This document shows positions 143 to 63,487 of a stretch of DNA of 64,000 nt, in pieces. A model generated the notes under the pieces. The model made no database searches. It saw nothing but the letters and a program-made list of their open reading frames with translations, and was not told the DNA's origin. The first letter of the stretch is position 1, and every line of letters begins with the position of its first letter. The position numbers and the translations under genes were made by a program. Location of the stretch: contig JAKAPI010000002.1 in the NCBI GenBank assembly GCA_021807225.1, positions 1-64,000 of the forward strand, given 5' to 3'. This DNA comes from an archaeon (GTDB lineage: Archaea; Thermoproteota; Nitrososphaeria; Nitrososphaerales; UBA183).

Positions 143-172
143 TTAGACATCTGCACCACAAGTGAGTTATAG
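143..172 (+). promoter_or_regulatory. Shared 30-bp promoter element, copy 1
   Basis: TTAGAC at 143-148, GCACCACA at 153-160 and a TATA-like TTATAG at 167-172. The same three blocks with identical spacing recur at 1867, 3623 and 4265. The start codon at 202 lies 35 nt from the first base of the TATA-like block, so the transcript should have almost no leader. The GCACCACA block ends six bases before the TATA-like block, immediately upstream of where BRE would lie. Regulatory function is inferred from conservation of sequence and spacing. Confidence 0.7.
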
Positions 173-201
173 AATGACGGCCTGCCTCTTCTCGAAGAAA
201 A

Positions 202-726
202 ATGACACAAACTGAAACACAAACCGAAATGAATCCGACGACCATCGTCGCAACAGTCCAACCAAAGGCGTTCAGCCAAGTGACAGAGCAACTTGAGAAC
301 ATCGAAGGAATAACCTACTTCTCGCCGCTCGTGGGCAGGTTCAACCTGGCCATCGAATTGAAGGCGGCGGAACCTGAACGAGTCCATGAGCTCGTTGAAA
401 AGATCCGGGCCATAGACGGCATCAAGTCAACAAGGACATATATCCCCCGAGCGGGCTTCGCGAGAGAACACAAGGGTACCCACGCAACCGATTCCCTTGC
501 GCTTGCGATGCTGCAGGTCGAGGGGCGGTCAGAGAAAATCCTGCGGTTCCTAGAGCAGCAGCCACAAGTCCGCAACGCATACGCCGTACCCGGCGAATTC
601 GACATCATCGCAACCGTGAGCGGCAAGAACCATGAAGAGGTTCTTTCCCAGGTTTCGAAGGTGGCGGAAGCGGAAGGGGTACGGACAAGCGAAACCCTGC
701 TCGCCTACCAGCCCACCTGGCGGTAG
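202..726 (+). CDS. Double Lrp/AsnC ligand-binding (RAM) domain protein, no HTH
   Basis: A 174-residue protein made of two tandem alpha/beta RAM-type domains, roughly residues 12-88 and 95-170, the ligand-sensing fold of Lrp/AsnC regulators. The second half contains the family-like stretch VRNAYAVPGEFDIIATV. No helix-turn-helix precedes either domain, so it cannot bind DNA in the usual Lrp manner. Such stand-alone RAM proteins often bind amino acids or modulate partner regulators. The tandem arrangement suggests an internal duplication. It is preceded by the shared 30-bp promoter element. The ligand is unknown. Confidence 0.8.
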   Translation: MTQTETQTEMNPTTIVATVQPKAFSQVTEQLENIEGITYFSPLVGRFNLAIELKAAEPERVHELVEKIRAIDGIKSTRTYIPRAGFAREHKGTHATDSLALAMLQVEGRSEKILRFLEQQPQVRNAYAVPGEFDIIATVSGKNHEEVLSQVSKVAEAEGVRTSETLLAYQPTWR

Positions 727-730
727 GCCC

Positions 731-745
731 TTTCCCCTTTTTTCC
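731..745 (+). terminator. Pyrimidine/T-rich terminator
   Basis: A T/C run with six consecutive T directly after the stop codon of the RAM protein. Archaeal RNA polymerase can terminate on oligo-T without a hairpin, and no hairpin is visible here. Confidence 0.4.
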
Positions 746-897
746 AGATTCATCGTGTAGCGTTTGCGAGCCAAGAACGCGCAACAAGGTCATGGGCAAT
801 GCGTGAGGCCACTTGGTATGTCACGCTTAGATTATTGCGCCAATATCAATAAATCAAAATATGTCTTCGCCCGGCCCAACCAGAGTAGCGCAAGACC

Positions 898-1470
898 TTG
901 TCATTTCTAGATAGGAGCGTCGAAGAAATCAGCCTGGGTGGAACCAGACGGGGGATCTACGACTACATCAAGTCCCACCCTGGCACGCACGAGCGCGAAA
1001 TTGAGAAGGAATTGGGCATAGCGACGGGAGATTTGCGATATCATCTGAACAAGCTTTCGAGGGCAGACTTGATAACGAGTTGGGGGAACGGGACCAAGTT
1101 CATCTTTCCTTCGAATCTCTTCGGAGAGAAACAGGAGGTCCTTCTAGGGTTGCTTACTCAGGAGACCCCACGTGAAATCCTACTATCCATCATGAGGCAT
1201 CCCGGCATAGGACAGAAGGAGCTTGCAGAGGAACTGAAGCTTTCCGCGCCGACGATATGGTGGCACATGGATAGGCTCCTTCGTCTGGGGGTGGTGGGAC
1301 GAAAGAAGGAGGGGAAGTCCGTCTCATACGAAGTGATTGCAAAGCGTGAAGACCTGCTCAACTTCATCGTCCGATACCATCCGACAATTTGGGAGAAGTG
1401 GGCCAGCAGGATGCACGACGTAACGCTGATGCTCGACTCCAAAGCCCAGAGGGCGACATCGGAGGAATGA
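898..1470 (+). CDS. Tandem winged-helix transcriptional regulator
   Basis: A 190-residue soluble protein with a TTG start. It has two winged helix-turn-helix domains: residues about 15-70 (REIEKELGIATGDLRYHLNKL, a recognition helix followed by a wing) and about 88-150 (QKELAEELKLSAPTIWWHMDRL). Two-wHTH proteins of this type are common archaeal regulators; the target is unknown. The A/T-rich stretch at 843-862 may hold the promoter. The next gene begins one base after the stop, so the two are probably co-transcribed. Confidence 0.75.
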   Translation: MSFLDRSVEEISLGGTRRGIYDYIKSHPGTHEREIEKELGIATGDLRYHLNKLSRADLITSWGNGTKFIFPSNLFGEKQEVLLGLLTQETPREILLSIMRHPGIGQKELAEELKLSAPTIWWHMDRLLRLGVVGRKKEGKSVSYEVIAKREDLLNFIVRYHPTIWEKWASRMHDVTLMLDSKAQRATSEE

Positions 1471-1471
1471 C

Positions 1472-1789
1472 ATGTCTGATCTTCTTTCTTTGCCCCTCCA
1501 GATTCTCGAAATGGTCGGCTCTACCGGCCTCCTAGAAGGAGTAAGGCTGGTAGTCGCGGGATTCGCTTTCGTGCTGCTCGTCATTTCCCTGACGGCATAC
1601 AGGAGGAACAAGTCGACACGGCTGTTGTTCGTTTCAGGTGCGTTTAGCGTCTTCCTTGTGAGGGTTCTCGTCGTCGAGAATCTGACGCTGTTGCTCCCAT
1701 CCCTCTCTCTGGATGTGGTAGATCTGCTCAGGGGCGCTCTCGACCTTGCGACGCTCCTGCTCTTCTTCTTTGCTGTGGTTAGAGACTAG
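1472..1789 (+). CDS. Small integral membrane protein, unknown
   Basis: A 105-residue protein with about three hydrophobic segments (near residues 20-40, 50-68 and 80-102), linked by short basic loops containing YRRNKSTR. It follows the winged-helix regulator with a single intervening base. In archaea, small membrane proteins translationally coupled to wHTH regulators may act as membrane sensors, but here that rests only on gene order. I recognise no family. Confidence 0.6.
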   Translation: MSDLLSLPLQILEMVGSTGLLEGVRLVVAGFAFVLLVISLTAYRRNKSTRLLFVSGAFSVFLVRVLVVENLTLLLPSLSLDVVDLLRGALDLATLLLFFFAVVRD

Positions 1790-1866
1790 TAGAACCGCCC
1801 TTCTGACGGCAGATGTCTCATGAATCTTTGGGACGAGGGCGCCAAGGCGAGGCGTAGACCGGAAGG

Positions 1867-1896
1867 TTAGACGTCCGCACCACATGACAATTATAG
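1867..1896 (+). promoter_or_regulatory. Shared 30-bp promoter element, copy 2 (TFB gene)
   Basis: TTAGAC at 1867-1872, GCACCACA at 1877-1884, TTATAG at 1891-1896. The ATG at 1925 is 34 nt from the TATA-like block, nearly the same as in copy 1. A TFB gene carries the element, so a TFB-specific or autoregulatory promoter is possible. Confidence 0.7.
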
Positions 1897-1924
1897 AATC
1901 GAGTTCGCCTTTCGACCGAACAAC

Positions 1925-2860
1925 ATGAATTTCCCAAGAATGGAGGGTCTTCAATACTCAGACGCCAGATGTCCCAAGTGCGGCACCCGATCGATAGCGG
2001 CCGATACTAGTACTGGCGAGCTGGTCTGCCGGAACTGTGGGTTCGTCGCAGGCGAGAGGTCGATCGCTGACAGGCAAGAATGGCAGACCTTCTCTGAAGC
2101 AGATAGAGTCAGAACCGGTGCTTGGATATCGATTACCAAGCGCGACATGGGGCTAGCCACAGTCATAGGCAGGTCCAACAGAGACGCCTACGGCAGGGCG
2201 TTGGCCCCGCCCACGAGAAGCGCCATTGACAGGCTCAGACTGTGGGACAGCCGCGCCTCGGCCCTGGGCTCGGTGGAGAAGGACTTGGAGCTGGCCATGG
2301 CAGAGATCGAGAAAATCGGCGACAAACTGGTTGTTTCGCAGGCGGTGAAGGAGAGGGCGGCCTACACCTACAGGAAGGCTTTGGAGCGGGGGCTGGTGAG
2401 AGGGAGGTCGATCCGGGGCATTGCCGCGGCCTCGCTCTACGCGGCGTTCAGAGACATGGAGGCGCCCAGGACGATAAAGGACATCGCTGCCGTGTGCAAC
2501 CTCGCAGCGAAGGACATCTCGAGGGACTACAGGATGTTGCTGCGCGAGATGGATCTCGTCATGCCCGTGGCGGACGCCGCAAGGAACGTCACGAGGATCG
2601 CCTCGAAGGTCGGGATGCCCGAGAGGGTCGTCAGGAAGGCGATAGAGATAGTCAGGATGACCGAGGAGATGGAGATTTCCGCAGGCAAGGCGCCCATGGG
2701 CCTGGCTGCGAGTTCGCTCTACTTGGCGGGGGTGCTGGAAGGCGAGAAGAGGACCCAGAAGGAGATCGCCGAGGCGGCCGAGGTCACCGAGGTAACCGTC
2801 AGGAACAGGTACAAGTGGCTCATGGCGCTCCTCGGGCCCAGATTGGGCTTGCCGACATAG
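1925..2860 (+). CDS. tfb: Transcription initiation factor B (TFB/TFIIB)
   Basis: A 311-residue general transcription factor that recruits RNA polymerase to TBP-TATA complexes and reads the BRE. An N-terminal zinc ribbon has Cys16, Cys19, Cys35 and Cys38. The B-reader/B-linker region follows, then two cyclin-fold repeats at about 108-200 and 205-305. The second repeat ends with the HTH-like segment TQKEIAEAAEVTEVTVRNRY that contacts BRE. Length and layout are normal for archaeal TFB. Thaumarchaeota usually have several TFB paralogues. This one is expressed from the shared 30-bp promoter element. Confidence 0.95.
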   Translation: MNFPRMEGLQYSDARCPKCGTRSIAADTSTGELVCRNCGFVAGERSIADRQEWQTFSEADRVRTGAWISITKRDMGLATVIGRSNRDAYGRALAPPTRSAIDRLRLWDSRASALGSVEKDLELAMAEIEKIGDKLVVSQAVKERAAYTYRKALERGLVRGRSIRGIAAASLYAAFRDMEAPRTIKDIAAVCNLAAKDISRDYRMLLREMDLVMPVADAARNVTRIASKVGMPERVVRKAIEIVRMTEEMEISAGKAPMGLAASSLYLAGVLEGEKRTQKEIAEAAEVTEVTVRNRYKWLMALLGPRLGLPT

Positions 2861-2887
2861 CTGTCCAAGAGCAGGCGGGGTTGCTGA

Positions 2888-3295
2888 ATGCTCAGAGAGG
2901 CTTTGGAGTCTATGCGCGCGAGGACCATTGGCGTGCTGGGGAACGCCGTCACAAGCGCCGGTTCGTCGGTGACAAAGAGAGAGGGATGGATTGAAGCCTT
3001 CTACGTAATAGCCATGGTTGCGTTCATGGCGGGGTTCGTCGGTGCCGTTGTGTTCCCGGTCCCGAACCAGAGCTACATACCGTACCCGAACGGTACGGCC
3101 GAGACCATCCCCGAGGCCGTCGTGGACTTCTTCGTAATAGCCGTCGGGGGCGCAGGTGTCTACCTCGCCTATCTCACCGGGAGGCAGTCGACCAAGCCGA
3201 GGAATGTCAACATGTACCTGGGGCTGGCTCTGCTTCTCCTCGTGGTGTCTGTGTTTGTCGGTATCGACATGGCGATACTCAAGGGGTTCGGCTAG
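2888..3295 (+). CDS. Small membrane protein, three TM segments
   Basis: A 135-residue protein with hydrophobic segments at about residues 36-57, 80-98 and 110-130. A short extracytoplasmic-looking loop between the first two holds VPNQSYIPYPNGT. It starts 28 nt after the TFB stop on the same strand and may be transcribed with it. I do not recognise a family; the ORF is supported by its hydrophobic pattern and codon use matching neighbours. Confidence 0.55.
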   Translation: MLREALESMRARTIGVLGNAVTSAGSSVTKREGWIEAFYVIAMVAFMAGFVGAVVFPVPNQSYIPYPNGTAETIPEAVVDFFVIAVGGAGVYLAYLTGRQSTKPRNVNMYLGLALLLLVVSVFVGIDMAILKGFG

Positions 3296-3622
3296 ATCAA
3301 AATGGAGGGGTCAACGAGAGCGCTCACAGGACGAGTTCCAGACCGCAGAAACAGGGACGAGAAGATGGCCATCAGGAAGCGCTGCGAGCCGAGGAGGCAT
3401 CGAGCAGAGAGGAGCGCAGCGTGATCCAGTTTGTACACTGCCAAACAGCCCAGAGTCGCGTGCCCCTGGTGCACCGTCCTGCCTCTGCCATGCCGGTCGG
3501 TCCGCGCACCACATCGGAACCGCAGGTCGAGTCGCGGCCTCCCAAGCCTGCTTAGGACTCGATCTCCCGTCCTCATGCTCCAAACGGCCCGGGGCGACAT
3601 AGGACGTCTCTGCGTACCAGCA
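3296..3622. other. Intergenic stretch without a supported gene
   Basis: About 330 bases between the membrane protein and the cupredoxin promoter. A 40-codon ATG frame at 3302 encodes a very basic peptide, but no homology or promoter supports it. No repeat or RNA gene was recognised. Confidence 0.4.
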
Positions 3623-3652
3623 TTAGACACTTGCACCACAACCGAGTAATAG
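3623..3652 (+). promoter_or_regulatory. Shared 30-bp promoter element, copy 3 (cupredoxin)
   Basis: TTAGAC at 3623-3628, GCACCACA at 3633-3640, TAATAG at 3647-3652. The TTG start lies at 3687, 40 nt from the TATA-like block. Spacings within the element equal those of the other copies. Confidence 0.7.
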
Positions 3653-3686
3653 TGAGGGCAAGTTACGAAATCCAGCAAATTACGAA

Positions 3687-4187
3687 TTGACTTTCTCCTC
3701 GCCCCGTACCGGTATCTCGACTTCGGCCGCGGTCGGAATAGTCGCGATCATGGTAATCGGCGCCGTGGCTTTCTACTACTTCTCCGCCAGTTCGGGCGCC
3801 CCTTCTTCGACCACATCTTCTTCCGCCTCCCTCAAAAGCGTGACCGTGACCGTGCCCACCGACGCCCCCACCCCACCCTCGGGCTGGAGTGCGAACAGCA
3901 ACCGCACGGACGGGGCCGAGGTCTCTGACTTGTTTTTCAATCCGGACAACATAACGCTGGTGATCGGAGTCAACAACTCCGTCACATGGCAGAATCCGAA
4001 CTCGGTTGCGCACACAGTGACATCGACCTCAGTCCCGTCTGGCGCTTCCACGTTCAACCTTCAGCTCGCGGCCGGAGGGAGCGTGACACAGCAGTTCACC
4101 GTCGCAGGGACATACTACTATCGCTGTACCATACATCCTTGGATGGGCGGGGAAATCATCGTGAAGTCTGGCTCATACTCCGGCTGA
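3687..4187 (+). CDS. Membrane-anchored blue copper protein (plastocyanin-like)
   Basis: A 166-residue cupredoxin with a TTG start. An N-terminal TM anchor (about residues 13-32) is followed by a Ser/Thr-rich linker and a plastocyanin/azurin-type beta-sandwich. All four type-1 copper ligands are visible: His109 (in SVAHTV), Cys147, His150 and Met153 (in RCTIHPWMGG). It probably carries electrons on the outer face of the membrane. Thaumarchaeota are known for many such proteins. It shares its promoter element with TFB and the HtrA protease downstream. Confidence 0.92.
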   Translation: MTFSSPRTGISTSAAVGIVAIMVIGAVAFYYFSASSGAPSSTTSSSASLKSVTVTVPTDAPTPPSGWSANSNRTDGAEVSDLFFNPDNITLVIGVNNSVTWQNPNSVAHTVTSTSVPSGASTFNLQLAAGGSVTQQFTVAGTYYYRCTIHPWMGGEIIVKSGSYSG

Positions 4188-4264
4188 TTGGTGGAGAATA
4201 CCAAAGGACCTGCCAGACTGGGGTCAACTACGGCGCTAGTGATCCAGGTCGTGGACCCGGAAGA

Positions 4265-4294
4265 ATAGATGATTGCACCACAACGGATTATTAG
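4265..4294 (+). promoter_or_regulatory. Shared 30-bp promoter element, copy 4 (HtrA)
   Basis: ATAGAT at 4265-4270 (a variant of TTAGAC), GCACCACA at 4275-4282 and TATTAG at 4289-4294. The GTG start at 4316 is 27 nt from the TATA-like block, fitting leaderless transcription. This is the most diverged copy in the first block, but the GCACCACA block is intact. Confidence 0.65.
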
Positions 4295-4315: not shown

Positions 4316-5560
4316 GTGACTCCTGAGAGGTCCGGAGGACGAAACGTCCTTTTCGCAGTCGCAGTCATCGCGCTGATCGCAGGCTCTGGCTTGACCTTCG
4401 CGTACTTCGGCTTAGCGAACGCGCAAACGGCGTCGAACCCCTCCACAGCAAGCCTGCAGAGCAAGGTTGCATCCCTTGAGAACAGCAACGCGGCGCTCCA
4501 GGCCCAGCTTACCGCTCTCAACAGCAGCTCATCATCCCAAACAACGCCCGGTACCGCTTTCACTGCCCAACAGATCTACGCAGTCTCATCCCCGAGCGTA
4601 GTGACGGTGCAAGGAGACCAGAGCACGACCGTCTCCTCCTTTTTCGGACCTCAAACCACCATAACCCCAGTCCTGGGCTCGGGCTTCGTGATCAGCTACC
4701 AGAACTCGTTCTACATAGCCACCAACTATCATGTTGTCGCCGGGGACAGCAATCTCACCGTGACCTTCCCGGATGGCAACGCGTACCCGGCCCAGATAGT
4801 GGGGACTGACCCCTACAGCGACTTGGCTGTCCTAAAGGTGAGCTCCGCCCCCGGATCCGAGTTCGTCTCCCTCCAGCTAGTCCCGTCGACCGACCTGAGC
4901 GTGGGCCAAGCGGTATATGCCATAGGAAACCCGTATGGCCTTTCAGGTTCGATGACTCCCGGGATAATCAGCCAGCTAGGGAGAACGATACAAGACCCTG
5001 TCGCCGGGAACTTCTCTGTGGCGGGGGTTATTCAGTTCAGCGCCCCCATCAATCCGGGAAACTCTGGCGGCCCTCTGCTTGACGCCAACGGCAAGGTAGT
5101 CGGGATAACGACGGCTACTGTGAGCAGCTCGCAGGGAATCGGGTTCGCCATACCCTCGAGCACAATCCTGAGAGACCTGCCTTCCCTGGTCAAGACCGGC
5201 ACATATTCCGAGTACTCCTACATCGGCATCACCACGGTGGACATGAGCTACCAACTCGCTGTTGCGTCCCACACCAATGTGACGTATGGGGTTCTGATTG
5301 AGAGCGTGGTCCCCGGCGGACCAGCGGCAAAGGCAGGCCTGCGGGCAGGGACGACCACGGTCACCATAGAAGGCACCCAGTACCTCGTAGGAGGCGACAT
5401 CATCGTGTCTGTAAACGGCACCAAGATTATCAACCAAGACGCGCTATCTACCTACCTCGTCCAGAACACCACCGCAGGTCAAACTGTCGACCTCGGAGTA
5501 ATCAGGTCAGGCACGCTGATCAGTGTAACCATGGTGACCGGCGCAAGGCCGCCAGCATAA
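4316..5560 (+). CDS. Exported HtrA/DegP-like serine protease with PDZ domain
   Basis: A 414-residue S1C protease with a GTG start. It has a TM/signal anchor at about residues 11-33, a coiled-coil-like stretch (about 46-70) with a Ser-rich linker, then a trypsin-like fold. The catalytic triad is His139 (NYHVVAG), Asp169 (SDLAVLKV) and Ser250 (NPGNSGGPLL). A C-terminal PDZ domain follows (about 310-410, including VVPGGPAAKAGLRAG). It likely degrades or refolds damaged extracytoplasmic proteins. A second HtrA lacking a signal lies at 62528-63487. Confidence 0.92.
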   Translation: MTPERSGGRNVLFAVAVIALIAGSGLTFAYFGLANAQTASNPSTASLQSKVASLENSNAALQAQLTALNSSSSSQTTPGTAFTAQQIYAVSSPSVVTVQGDQSTTVSSFFGPQTTITPVLGSGFVISYQNSFYIATNYHVVAGDSNLTVTFPDGNAYPAQIVGTDPYSDLAVLKVSSAPGSEFVSLQLVPSTDLSVGQAVYAIGNPYGLSGSMTPGIISQLGRTIQDPVAGNFSVAGVIQFSAPINPGNSGGPLLDANGKVVGITTATVSSSQGIGFAIPSSTILRDLPSLVKTGTYSEYSYIGITTVDMSYQLAVASHTNVTYGVLIESVVPGGPAAKAGLRAGTTTVTIEGTQYLVGGDIIVSVNGTKIINQDALSTYLVQNTTAGQTVDLGVIRSGTLISVTMVTGARPPA

Positions 5561-25882: not shown

Positions 25883-25982
25883 TGCGGGGGATGGGATTCG
25901 AACCCACGAACCCCTAAGGGATGGGATCTCCCGGGTCGTCCGCTTAAGTCCCACGCTTTTAGCCAAGCTTAGCTACCCCCGC
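25883..25982 (-). tRNA. tRNA-Leu (UAA) with 15-nt intron
   Basis: A seven-pair acceptor stem (25976-25982 with 25884-25890), a D-arm, a TGGGA/TCCCA anticodon stem, a long type II variable arm and a T-arm with TTCGAAT. The anticodon TAA is at 25944-25946. A 15-nt intron (25928-25942) sits at the canonical position after base 37; removing it leaves 85 nt and a seven-base loop CTTAAGA. CCA is not encoded. Confidence 0.93.
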
Positions 25983-62527: not shown

Positions 62528-63487
62528 ATGGCACTGTCAGGACTCGAAGGTCAGGTCACCGGCGCGGTCGACAAGCTCAGCGAGAGCATCGTCGGCGTCA
62601 GCAGCATGAGGCTCGAACGGAGGTTCTTCGGCATAGTCCCGCTCGAGGGTCAAGGTTCCGGGATAGTCTTGGACAGGAAAGGGCTCATCGTTACTAACAA
62701 CCACGTCATCGACGGCGCCAACCAGGTGCACGTCAGCCTCAAGGACGGGAGGACGTTCACCGGAGAGGTCGTCGGCTCCGACGAAGCCACAGACGTGGCG
62801 GTCATCAGGGTCGACGCCTCAGACCTCCCCGCGGCCGAGCTGGGGGACTCGGAGGCGGTCAAGGTGGGCCAGTTCGTCCTCGCCATCGGCAACGCGCTCG
62901 CCCTCCCAGGGGGCCCCACCGTTTCAATGGGGGTCCTGAGCGCGAAGGGGAGGCCCCTGCCTGGCTCCGACTTCATCTTCGAGGGGCTCCTGCAGACCGA
63001 CGCGGCGGTCAACCCGGGCAACAGCGGGGGGCCGCTCGCCGACCTCGACGGGCGGATCATAGGCATCACCACCCTCATGATACCCTACGCCCAGGGGATG
63101 GGGTTCGCCATCCCGATCAACACAGTCAAGCGCATCTCCCAGGAGATCCTCCAGAACGGCAGGGTCGCCCGCAGATGGATAGGCATCTCCGGCATCGACG
63201 TCAGCCCCCAGCTTGCCCGGAGGTACGACCTCCAGGCCGAGTCGGGGTTCCTTGTGGCCGAGGTGGTCCCGCGCAGCCCGGCGGAGTACGCGGGGCTCCG
63301 CAACGGCGACGTGATAGTGGGAGCTGACGGTGCAGAGGTGAAGCATACGAAGGACCTGCTGCTCGCGGTATCCAAGTCGGGCGCCGGTGGCAGGATGAGG
63401 CTGGACATCAACAGGATAGGGAGGAAGGGGTCCATCGAGGTCGCCCCGACCGAGGCACCCCCGGTCCAGAACTACGGCGGAAGGTAG
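62528..63487 (+). CDS. Intracellular HtrA-like serine protease with PDZ domain
   Basis: A 319-residue S1C protease without a signal or TM segment, hence probably cytoplasmic. The triad is His59 (NNHVIDG), Asp89 (TDVAVIRV) and Ser166 (NPGNSGGPL). The PDZ domain is at about 215-300 (RRWIGISGIDVSPQ, VVPRSPAEYAGLRNGD). It differs from the exported enzyme at 4316-5560. The PPOX gene and HxlR regulator next to it hint at stress-linked protein quality control. Confidence 0.92.
   Translation: MALSGLEGQVTGAVDKLSESIVGVSSMRLERRFFGIVPLEGQGSGIVLDRKGLIVTNNHVIDGANQVHVSLKDGRTFTGEVVGSDEATDVAVIRVDASDLPAAELGDSEAVKVGQFVLAIGNALALPGGPTVSMGVLSAKGRPLPGSDFIFEGLLQTDAAVNPGNSGGPLADLDGRIIGITTLMIPYAQGMGFAIPINTVKRISQEILQNGRVARRWIGISGIDVSPQLARRYDLQAESGFLVAEVVPRSPAEYAGLRNGDVIVGADGAEVKHTKDLLLAVSKSGAGGRMRLDINRIGRKGSIEVAPTEAPPVQNYGGR

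Follow-up and report, generated by a model that had tools for sequence, protein, structure and literature searches.

A spaced 30-bp promoter element in archaeal DNA and a tandem winged-helix protein as its candidate reader

The window analysed here is a 64-kb stretch of Nitrososphaerota-like DNA, close to whose left end genes for a double-RAM protein, a tandem winged helix-turn-helix (wHTH) protein, a small membrane protein, a TFB paralogue, a cupredoxin and an HtrA-type protease lie together with copies of a 30-bp promoter element (Table 1). The taxon-named homologues of the double-RAM protein are assigned to a Nitrososphaerota, Nitrososphaerales or Thaumarchaeota archaeon, and the nearest genomes found are the metagenome-assembled genomes that carry loci L001 (84% identity) and L002 (79% identity). 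The start codon of the membrane protein gene lies one base past the stop codon of the helix-turn-helix (HTH) gene. In NCBIfam, no model above cut-off was obtained for the double-RAM protein, the TFB or the cupredoxin.

Table 1. Elements and genes at the left end of the window, in order of position.
Feature	Position	Strand	Basis or remark
Operator/promoter copy 1, TTAGAC-N4-GCACCACA-N6-TTATAG	143..172	+	5' of the double-RAM gene; kept in L001 and L002
Double-RAM (Lrp/AsnC ligand-binding) protein, target	202..726	+	PF01037, 63.7 bits, two stretches matched
Weaker fifth copy, TTAGAT-N4-GCGCCAAT-N6-AAATCA (N4 = tatt)	827..856	+	5' of the HTH gene
Tandem winged-helix regulator, proposed operator binder	898..1470	+	HTH_HVO_0163_N and HTH_24 (Pfam); AlphaFold model
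Small DUF7471-like membrane protein, 105 aa, proposed membrane partner	1472..1789	+	PF24283, 20 bits (cut-off 27)
Operator/promoter copy 2	1867..1896	+	5' of the TFB gene; L047 counterpart with one mismatch
TFB paralogue (TFIIB/TFB), target rather than driver	1925..2860	+	Pfam; genome distribution
Hydrophobic protein, no Pfam match, 3' of the TFB gene	2888..3295	+	Orthologue in L001
Remnant resembling the part that precedes the Rieske domain in the fused ORF of L001	3340..3597	+	tblastn, blastn
Operator/promoter copy 3	3623..3652	+	5' of the cupredoxin gene
Plastocyanin/azurin-type cupredoxin, N-terminal hydrophobic segment, target	3687..4187	+	PF00127, 29.2 bits (cut-off 21.2)
Operator/promoter copy 4	4265..4294	+	5' of the HtrA gene; similar genes with a site in L040, L041 and L042
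HtrA/Deg-type serine protease (trypsin-PDZ), N-terminal hydrophobic segment, target	4316..5560	+	Pfam

The pattern WTAGAY-N4-GCACCACA-N6-TWWTAG matches exactly at all four places where a sequence-only reading of this DNA had reported it, always on the + strand, and Pfam bore out the identities given there to the single gene behind each copy. The reported distance of 27-40 nt between the TATA-like block and the start codon is right when counted from the first base of the block (35, 34, 40 and 27 nt for copies 1-4); counted from its last base, the start codons follow after gaps of 29, 28, 34 and 21 nt. The chance expectation for the 30-bp pattern with up to 3 mismatches is 0.01, none of 100 dinucleotide-preserving shuffles yielded four matches, and no further copy of the spaced pattern was found within the 64 kb at up to 3 mismatches. 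The core GCACCACA by itself occurs seven times in the window (1.56 expected), and a TATA-like block at equal distance is absent after the remaining three. The four 30-bp elements are thereby confirmed as real.

The element is asymmetric and consists of box A (TTAGAY) and box B (G(C/T)ACCACA), separated by 4 bp, with centres 11 bp apart, i.e., about one helical turn. Box B lies 6 bp 5' of the TATA-like block in all four window sites, and box A lies 19-24 bp 5' of the first base of that block. The TATA-like blocks, among them TTATAG, TAATAG and TATTAG, look weak.

The element was surveyed in the 46 genomes of the family to which G001, the nearest relative of the window, belongs. With up to 2 mismatches, the pattern gave 17 matches in 11 of the 46 genomes and its reversed form gave none. 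A sequence model trained on 21 sites (R1) retrieved 33 matches in 16 of the 46 genomes at E ≤1, and a control model built from reversed sequences and run on the family genomes (R2) retrieved 10 matches in 10 genomes, the best at E 0.0288. Below that value, there are 25 R1 matches, 17 of them training sites of R1 and 8 new; the 13 genomes that hold them are referred to as motif genomes, as distinct from the 33 others.

The sites seldom fall within genes. A single site out of 29 is located in a long open reading frame (ORF; at least 150 aa with codon-position bias), compared with 4320 of 5800 random positions (74%) of the same loci, which argues that the element is tied to promoters, in line with the sequence-only reading. 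The 29 sites comprise the four window copies, 24 of the 25 family R1 matches below E 0.0288 and the weaker site G034:C12; a 30th site (L082), omitted from this set, is also outside long ORFs. The sole site within an ORF (L040) is in a stretch 5' of the HtrA start used in the target analysis. In relatives, a site stands 5' of orthologues of the double-RAM gene (L001 and L002, at the same place), of the TFB gene (L047) and of the HtrA gene (L040-L042, L041 being recognised by its N-terminus); the double-RAM orthologues of L003-L013 have different promoters without the motif, so that a lack of the motif in front of orthologues, which the sequence-only reading would count against it, does occur in part. 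These data support the element as a promoter-associated regulon element that keeps a constant distance to a TATA-like block, and the idea of a regulon, put forward in the sequence-only reading, stands.

Two further proposals were tried and rejected. R1 yields 0-4 sites per family genome at E ≤1, which speaks against a larger regulon: either the regulon of strong sites is small or other sites are weaker. A riboswitch or other RNA element does not fit a motif that lies 5' of the TATA-like block, and the sole Rfam match in the window is a tRNA elsewhere. By eye, most of the double-RAM orthologues of L003-L012 share GTAATAA 5' of a TATATA-like block, with a TTGAAA-like stretch after it, which may represent a second regulatory element distinct from the operator.

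The copy in front of the HTH gene was overlooked by the earlier reading. In the window it escapes R1 even at E ≤5, and its counterparts in G001 (E 0.034) and G002 (E 0.09) are weak by the same model; it is a putative autoregulatory site. Autoregulation of the HTH gene is not universal, as judged from the position of the sites in relatives considered below.

The product of the HTH gene matches the Pfam families HTH_HVO_0163_N (62.7 bits, cut-off 31) and HTH_24 (67.8 bits, cut-off 21.9), and its AlphaFold model has two wHTH domains (mean predicted local distance difference score, pLDDT, 75.4; predicted template modelling score, pTM, 0.55). A structure search with this model returned partial matches to winged-helix proteins, those of the single domains including ArsR/SmtB and MarR-type proteins; of the 50 structures listed, none matched the tandem well over its full length. 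The protein contains no cysteine, and thus the metal-binding cysteines of ArsR metalloregulators are absent.

The element and this protein occur together. Relatives of the HTH protein at E 1e-10 or better are present in 10/13 motif genomes and in 0/33 others (Fisher p 7e-8), and a wider HTH profile retrieves the same ten genomes at E 1e-30. An HTH gene followed by a DUF7471-like gene (plus G002, with its contig end) is found in 8/13 motif genomes vs. 0/33 (p 5e-6). Since the motif tracks the HTH gene across genomes, its product is a better candidate reader than the TFB. Outside the family, 300 genomes sampled from the taxonomic order yielded 36 R1 matches at E 0.02, spread over 26 genomes; an HTH homologue starts no more than 300 bp away from 10 of these matches and no more than 1.5 kb away from 12, and 17 of the 26 genomes have such a homologue.

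Promoters of HTH homologues outside the family were collected independently of R1. There are 41 usable promoters from 40 loci that were fetched for HTH homology and represent the top of the HTH list; L173 and the loci selected by R1 (L110-L129) were excluded, and L155, L186 and L189, fetched by homology, also hold R1 matches. A position weight matrix (PWM) for box A plus box B scored at least 12 on the gene strand in 16 of the 41, on the other strand in 6 and on either strand in 21, the chance expectation from resampled sequence being 0.53 per strand; inside the genes there were no matches to the two boxes. The sites take the form TTAGAY-N4-G(C/T)ACCACA or similar, and the HTH proteins behind them are 30-43% identical to the window protein. 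In 22 outside-family HTH promoters, this time with loci selected by R1 included, the consensus is TTAGAY-N3-TGTACCACAA. At positions +6 to +9 past box B, the A/T fraction is 0.87-1.00, compared with 0.65 further downstream (15 distinct promoters, R1-selected loci excluded), which places an A/T-rich stretch at the same distance as the TATA-like block of the window. Orthologues of the regulator-operator pair would be expected to use the form TTAGAY-N4-GTACCACA.

At 57 of 62 loci the gene next to the HTH gene on its 3' side encodes a small DUF7471-like membrane protein, with a 4-nt overlap in 21. The predicted partners are 96-166 aa long (median 108) and have two to four hydrophobic segments according to a hydrophobicity script. 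The ORF with the highest number of membrane segments in the neighbourhood of the HTH stop codon was taken as the partner, a choice that favours finding one; that the partner is real is argued by a sequence pattern shared in the alignment (F at one position in 57/57, followed by LF, and LFFxAIV close to the end). Among the five exceptions, L106, L107 and L109 have neither partner nor upstream operator, the contig of L151 ends within a partner-like ORF, and no partner ORF was found in L175. The window partner scores below the PF24283 (DUF7471) cut-off and can be called DUF7471-like only; among 14 control genomes, only that of Haloferax volcanii has a PF24283 match.

The genes behind the sites mostly encode proteins that act at or outside the membrane, export being judged by eye from N-termini. 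HtrA follows sites in the window, L040 and L042 (Pfam) and in L041 (N-terminus similarity). Rieske proteins do so in L044 and L045 and in L038, where the ORF starts 196 nt past the site; in L001 the target is a Rieske ORF fused to a TFB remnant. DedA/VTT proteins (L038, L041 and L083), PF04185 phosphoesterases (L039 and L042), a Lipoprotein_15 protein (L046), the window cupredoxin and short proteins that begin with a hydrophobic stretch (L037, L042 and L080) complete this group. TFB is a target in the window and L047, and the double-RAM protein in the window, L001 and L002; no clear protein gene was identified after the sites in L043, L079, L081 and L082. A wider model (R3) was run, without a reversed control, on 35 chosen HTH-bearing genomes outside the family and gave 54 matches at E ≤0.01 in 21 of them. 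Downstream of 29 inspected R3 sites, 15 had no ORF of at least 60 aa starting within 260 nt, and four ORFs characterised by Pfam were a CHRD protein, a metallophosphatase, a protein without a match and a 4Fe-4S protein, the first three with a signal-like N-terminus by eye; for exported targets outside the family, this is weak evidence.

Predicted transcripts at L043:2706 (+), L043:6618 (+), L082 at about 675 (-) and L081:7861 (-) share a leader near CCTTCGTCA-TGCAAAGGGA. A GC-rich hairpin is present in three of the four, with fold z-scores of -4.6 in L082, -2.9 and -1.8 in L043 and +0.3 in L081; a small RNA or a leader peptide under the operator is possible. Elsewhere, operator-like sites form divergent back-to-back pairs at L277:2333-2442 (G175:C162) and L123:1205-1322 (G175:C86).

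Our preferred explanation, to which we assign a probability of roughly 75%, is that the element is a bipartite operator bound by the tandem wHTH protein acting as an activator, with the DUF7471-like membrane protein as its partner, and that the regulon is mainly extracytoplasmic. The protein is the most likely candidate reader, binding being suggested by co-occurrence and linkage. It would bind the asymmetric operator just 5' of the TFB recognition element (BRE) and the TATA-like block; since the box centres are about one helical turn apart, its two winged-helix domains may each occupy one box on the same DNA face. From its position just 5' of BRE/TATA we infer an activator, which would recruit or stabilise TBP/TFB at the weak TATA-like block. 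The co-produced membrane protein would act as a sensor for the membrane or cell surface, retaining the regulator or setting it free. The output would be HtrA, Rieske, DedA, cupredoxin, phosphoesterases and secreted proteins, and in the window lineage the regulon would also take in the TFB and the double-RAM protein as a second control tier.

Several results weigh against this explanation. At E 1e-8, the wider profile adds weaker HTH matches for a total of 17/46 genomes, six of them without the motif, and G008, G031 and G035 hold motif sites without a strong HTH match (in G035, a DUF7471-like piece lies at a contig edge, L086:5-103). The HTH homologues L107 (G005) and L106 (G010) belong to those that lack both partner and upstream site. 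The site is located 3' of the HTH gene in L042, L044, L045 and L084 and about 0.5 and 2.1 kb upstream in L079 and L083. Outside the family, 9 of the 26 genomes with R1 matches have no HTH match, including G232 with five matches, and the 36 R1 matches there are to be set against about 6 expected by chance in 300 genomes at E 0.02, the R2 control applying at the family level. Family sites served to train the PWM behind the 16 scoring promoters, two of which are identical in sequence, and 20 of the 41 HTH promoters score below 12 on both strands. Finally, ArsR/MarR-like proteins are more often repressors.

The last point leads to the strongest competitor, in which the same HTH protein and operator form a pair but the protein is a repressor, keeping TFB from loading as long as no signal from the surface sets it free. 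The single-domain fold matches include ArsR/SmtB and MarR-type proteins, and box B abuts the BRE; nonetheless, the operator is 5' of the TATA-like block rather than over it, its 6-bp spacing is constant in all four window sites with the A/T-rich stretch placed alike in outside-family HTH promoters, and the TATA-like blocks are weak-looking. We consider repression unlikely, though it is the alternative to be taken most seriously.

It would also be conceivable that some other DNA-binding protein reads the element and the adjacent HTH gene is merely one of its targets, and the three motif genomes (of 13) without a strong HTH match fit this idea. It is harder to reconcile with the motif upstream of outside-family HTH genes whose proteins are only 30-43% identical, with the R1 matches that adjoin HTH genes there, or with the joint absence of partner and upstream site in L106, L107 and L109. 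We therefore hold it to be less probable still than repression.

According to the sequence-only reading, a particular TFB may drive the regulon; the element would then be a promoter specific to the TFB of the window, which would recognise it as an extended BRE and regulate itself and the other genes. A site does precede the TFB gene in the window and in L047, and box B is just 5' of the BRE position. Yet orthologues of the window TFB (at least 60% identity) are present in 25 of the 46 family genomes (a count that includes G045, with 79% over 121 aa only), namely in 4/13 motif genomes and 21/33 others, a trend opposite to that expected of a driver (Fisher p 0.056). In the corresponding slot of L001, only a remnant is left, residues 5-61 of the ORF aligning to the window TFB at 47%, and the motif is kept there in front of the double-RAM gene and, in a one-mismatch form, in front of the remnant. 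In addition, box A, at 19-24 bp from the start of the TATA-like block, lies beyond the known reach of TFB. Because of this distribution and the L001 remnant, the TFB was rejected as a driver; it looks like a target, a member gained or lost rather than the reader of the element, and a TFB-specific promoter is improbable.

That the double-RAM protein itself does the regulating, controlling its own promoter together with an HTH partner, is least credible of all: the first site fronts its gene and RAM domains belong to Lrp-type regulators, but no HTH match was found in it by Pfam, and gene and motif come apart in L003-L013, where the orthologues sit behind a different promoter, so that it too was rejected as a driver.

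Among the neighbouring features, the remnant that separates the TFB operon from the cupredoxin gene aligns with the L001 fused ORF by tblastn (37% over 90 aa, E 1.3e-5) and by blastn (77% over 111 nt). That ORF (L001:9734-10945) joins in frame a TFB zinc-ribbon remnant, most of whose cysteines are lost, to a Rieske protein, with a one-mismatch operator in front. A second HtrA-like ORF, judged by eye, lies near the far end of the window (62528-63487), and R1 found no site near it. The tRNA match at 25883-25982 (-) scores 48.1 bits in Rfam and was not called by ARAGORN; it covers 100 nt, compared with 71 positions of the model, and perhaps bears an intron.

Some relatives of the proposed components have been described. 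HVO_0163-type proteins (PF24266) resemble the window protein in having two winged-helix domains in about 190 aa, and the window partner has a weak sequence likeness to DUF7471 (PF24283). According to the available part of PMC10294847, HVO_0163 of Haloferax ("ArsR-type") becomes more abundant after hypochlorite; together with the membrane partner and the HtrA and DedA targets, this would point to surface or oxidative stress as the stimulus. In the open-licence PMC papers searched, we found no operator or regulon of HVO_0163 and no occurrence of the term DUF7471, and recognised no description of the regulator-operator pair or of a regulon for archaeal envelope stress whose operator is named; the available main text of the CsmR paper (PMC13286277) does not name HVO_0163. 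The same paper describes, in its available part, EarA, a wHTH protein that binds just 5' of an archaeal promoter and is bypassed by BRE-strengthening mutations. EarA is a different protein, but such a bypass is what one would expect of an activator at this position; a DUF7471-type partner of EarA is not mentioned in that part. A copper-limitation motif of Nitrososphaera viennensis, TTCSGSMTTTGWACYANT, is reported in the available part of PMC7785015. Its 3' half, TTTGWACYA, resembles box B with the T upstream of it (TGTACCA), whereas its 5' half differs from TTAGAY; the genes have to do with copper and exported proteins, with an ArsR-type gene in one cluster, and the motif may belong to a related regulator.

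If our explanation is correct, a candidate regulator, its DNA site, a membrane partner and a target list would come in one package, archaeal sensing of cell-surface trouble would become directly testable, and the families PF24266 and DUF7471-like would be tied to a function. Extracytoplasmic stress regulons are known in bacteria, with sigma-E/RseA and Cpx as examples. Their features found here are a co-encoded membrane partner (57/62 loci) and an exported protease and envelope proteins among the targets, just as the bacterial systems couple a membrane protein to a regulator and have an HtrA/DegP-type protease and envelope proteins in their regulons. Tentatively, and with rather more doubt than conviction, we suggest that the system is an archaeal counterpart of sigma-E/Cpx, in which a DUF7471-like membrane protein would control a tandem wHTH activator, each of whose domains would occupy one box beside the BRE and which would turn on the genes for HtrA, DedA, redox proteins and exported proteins and possibly small structured RNAs, with TFB as a second tier in some lineages. 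Unlike its bacterial analogues, the window system has neither a sigma factor nor a two-component system, works from an archaeal TBP/TFB promoter and counts redox proteins (Rieske and cupredoxin) among its targets.

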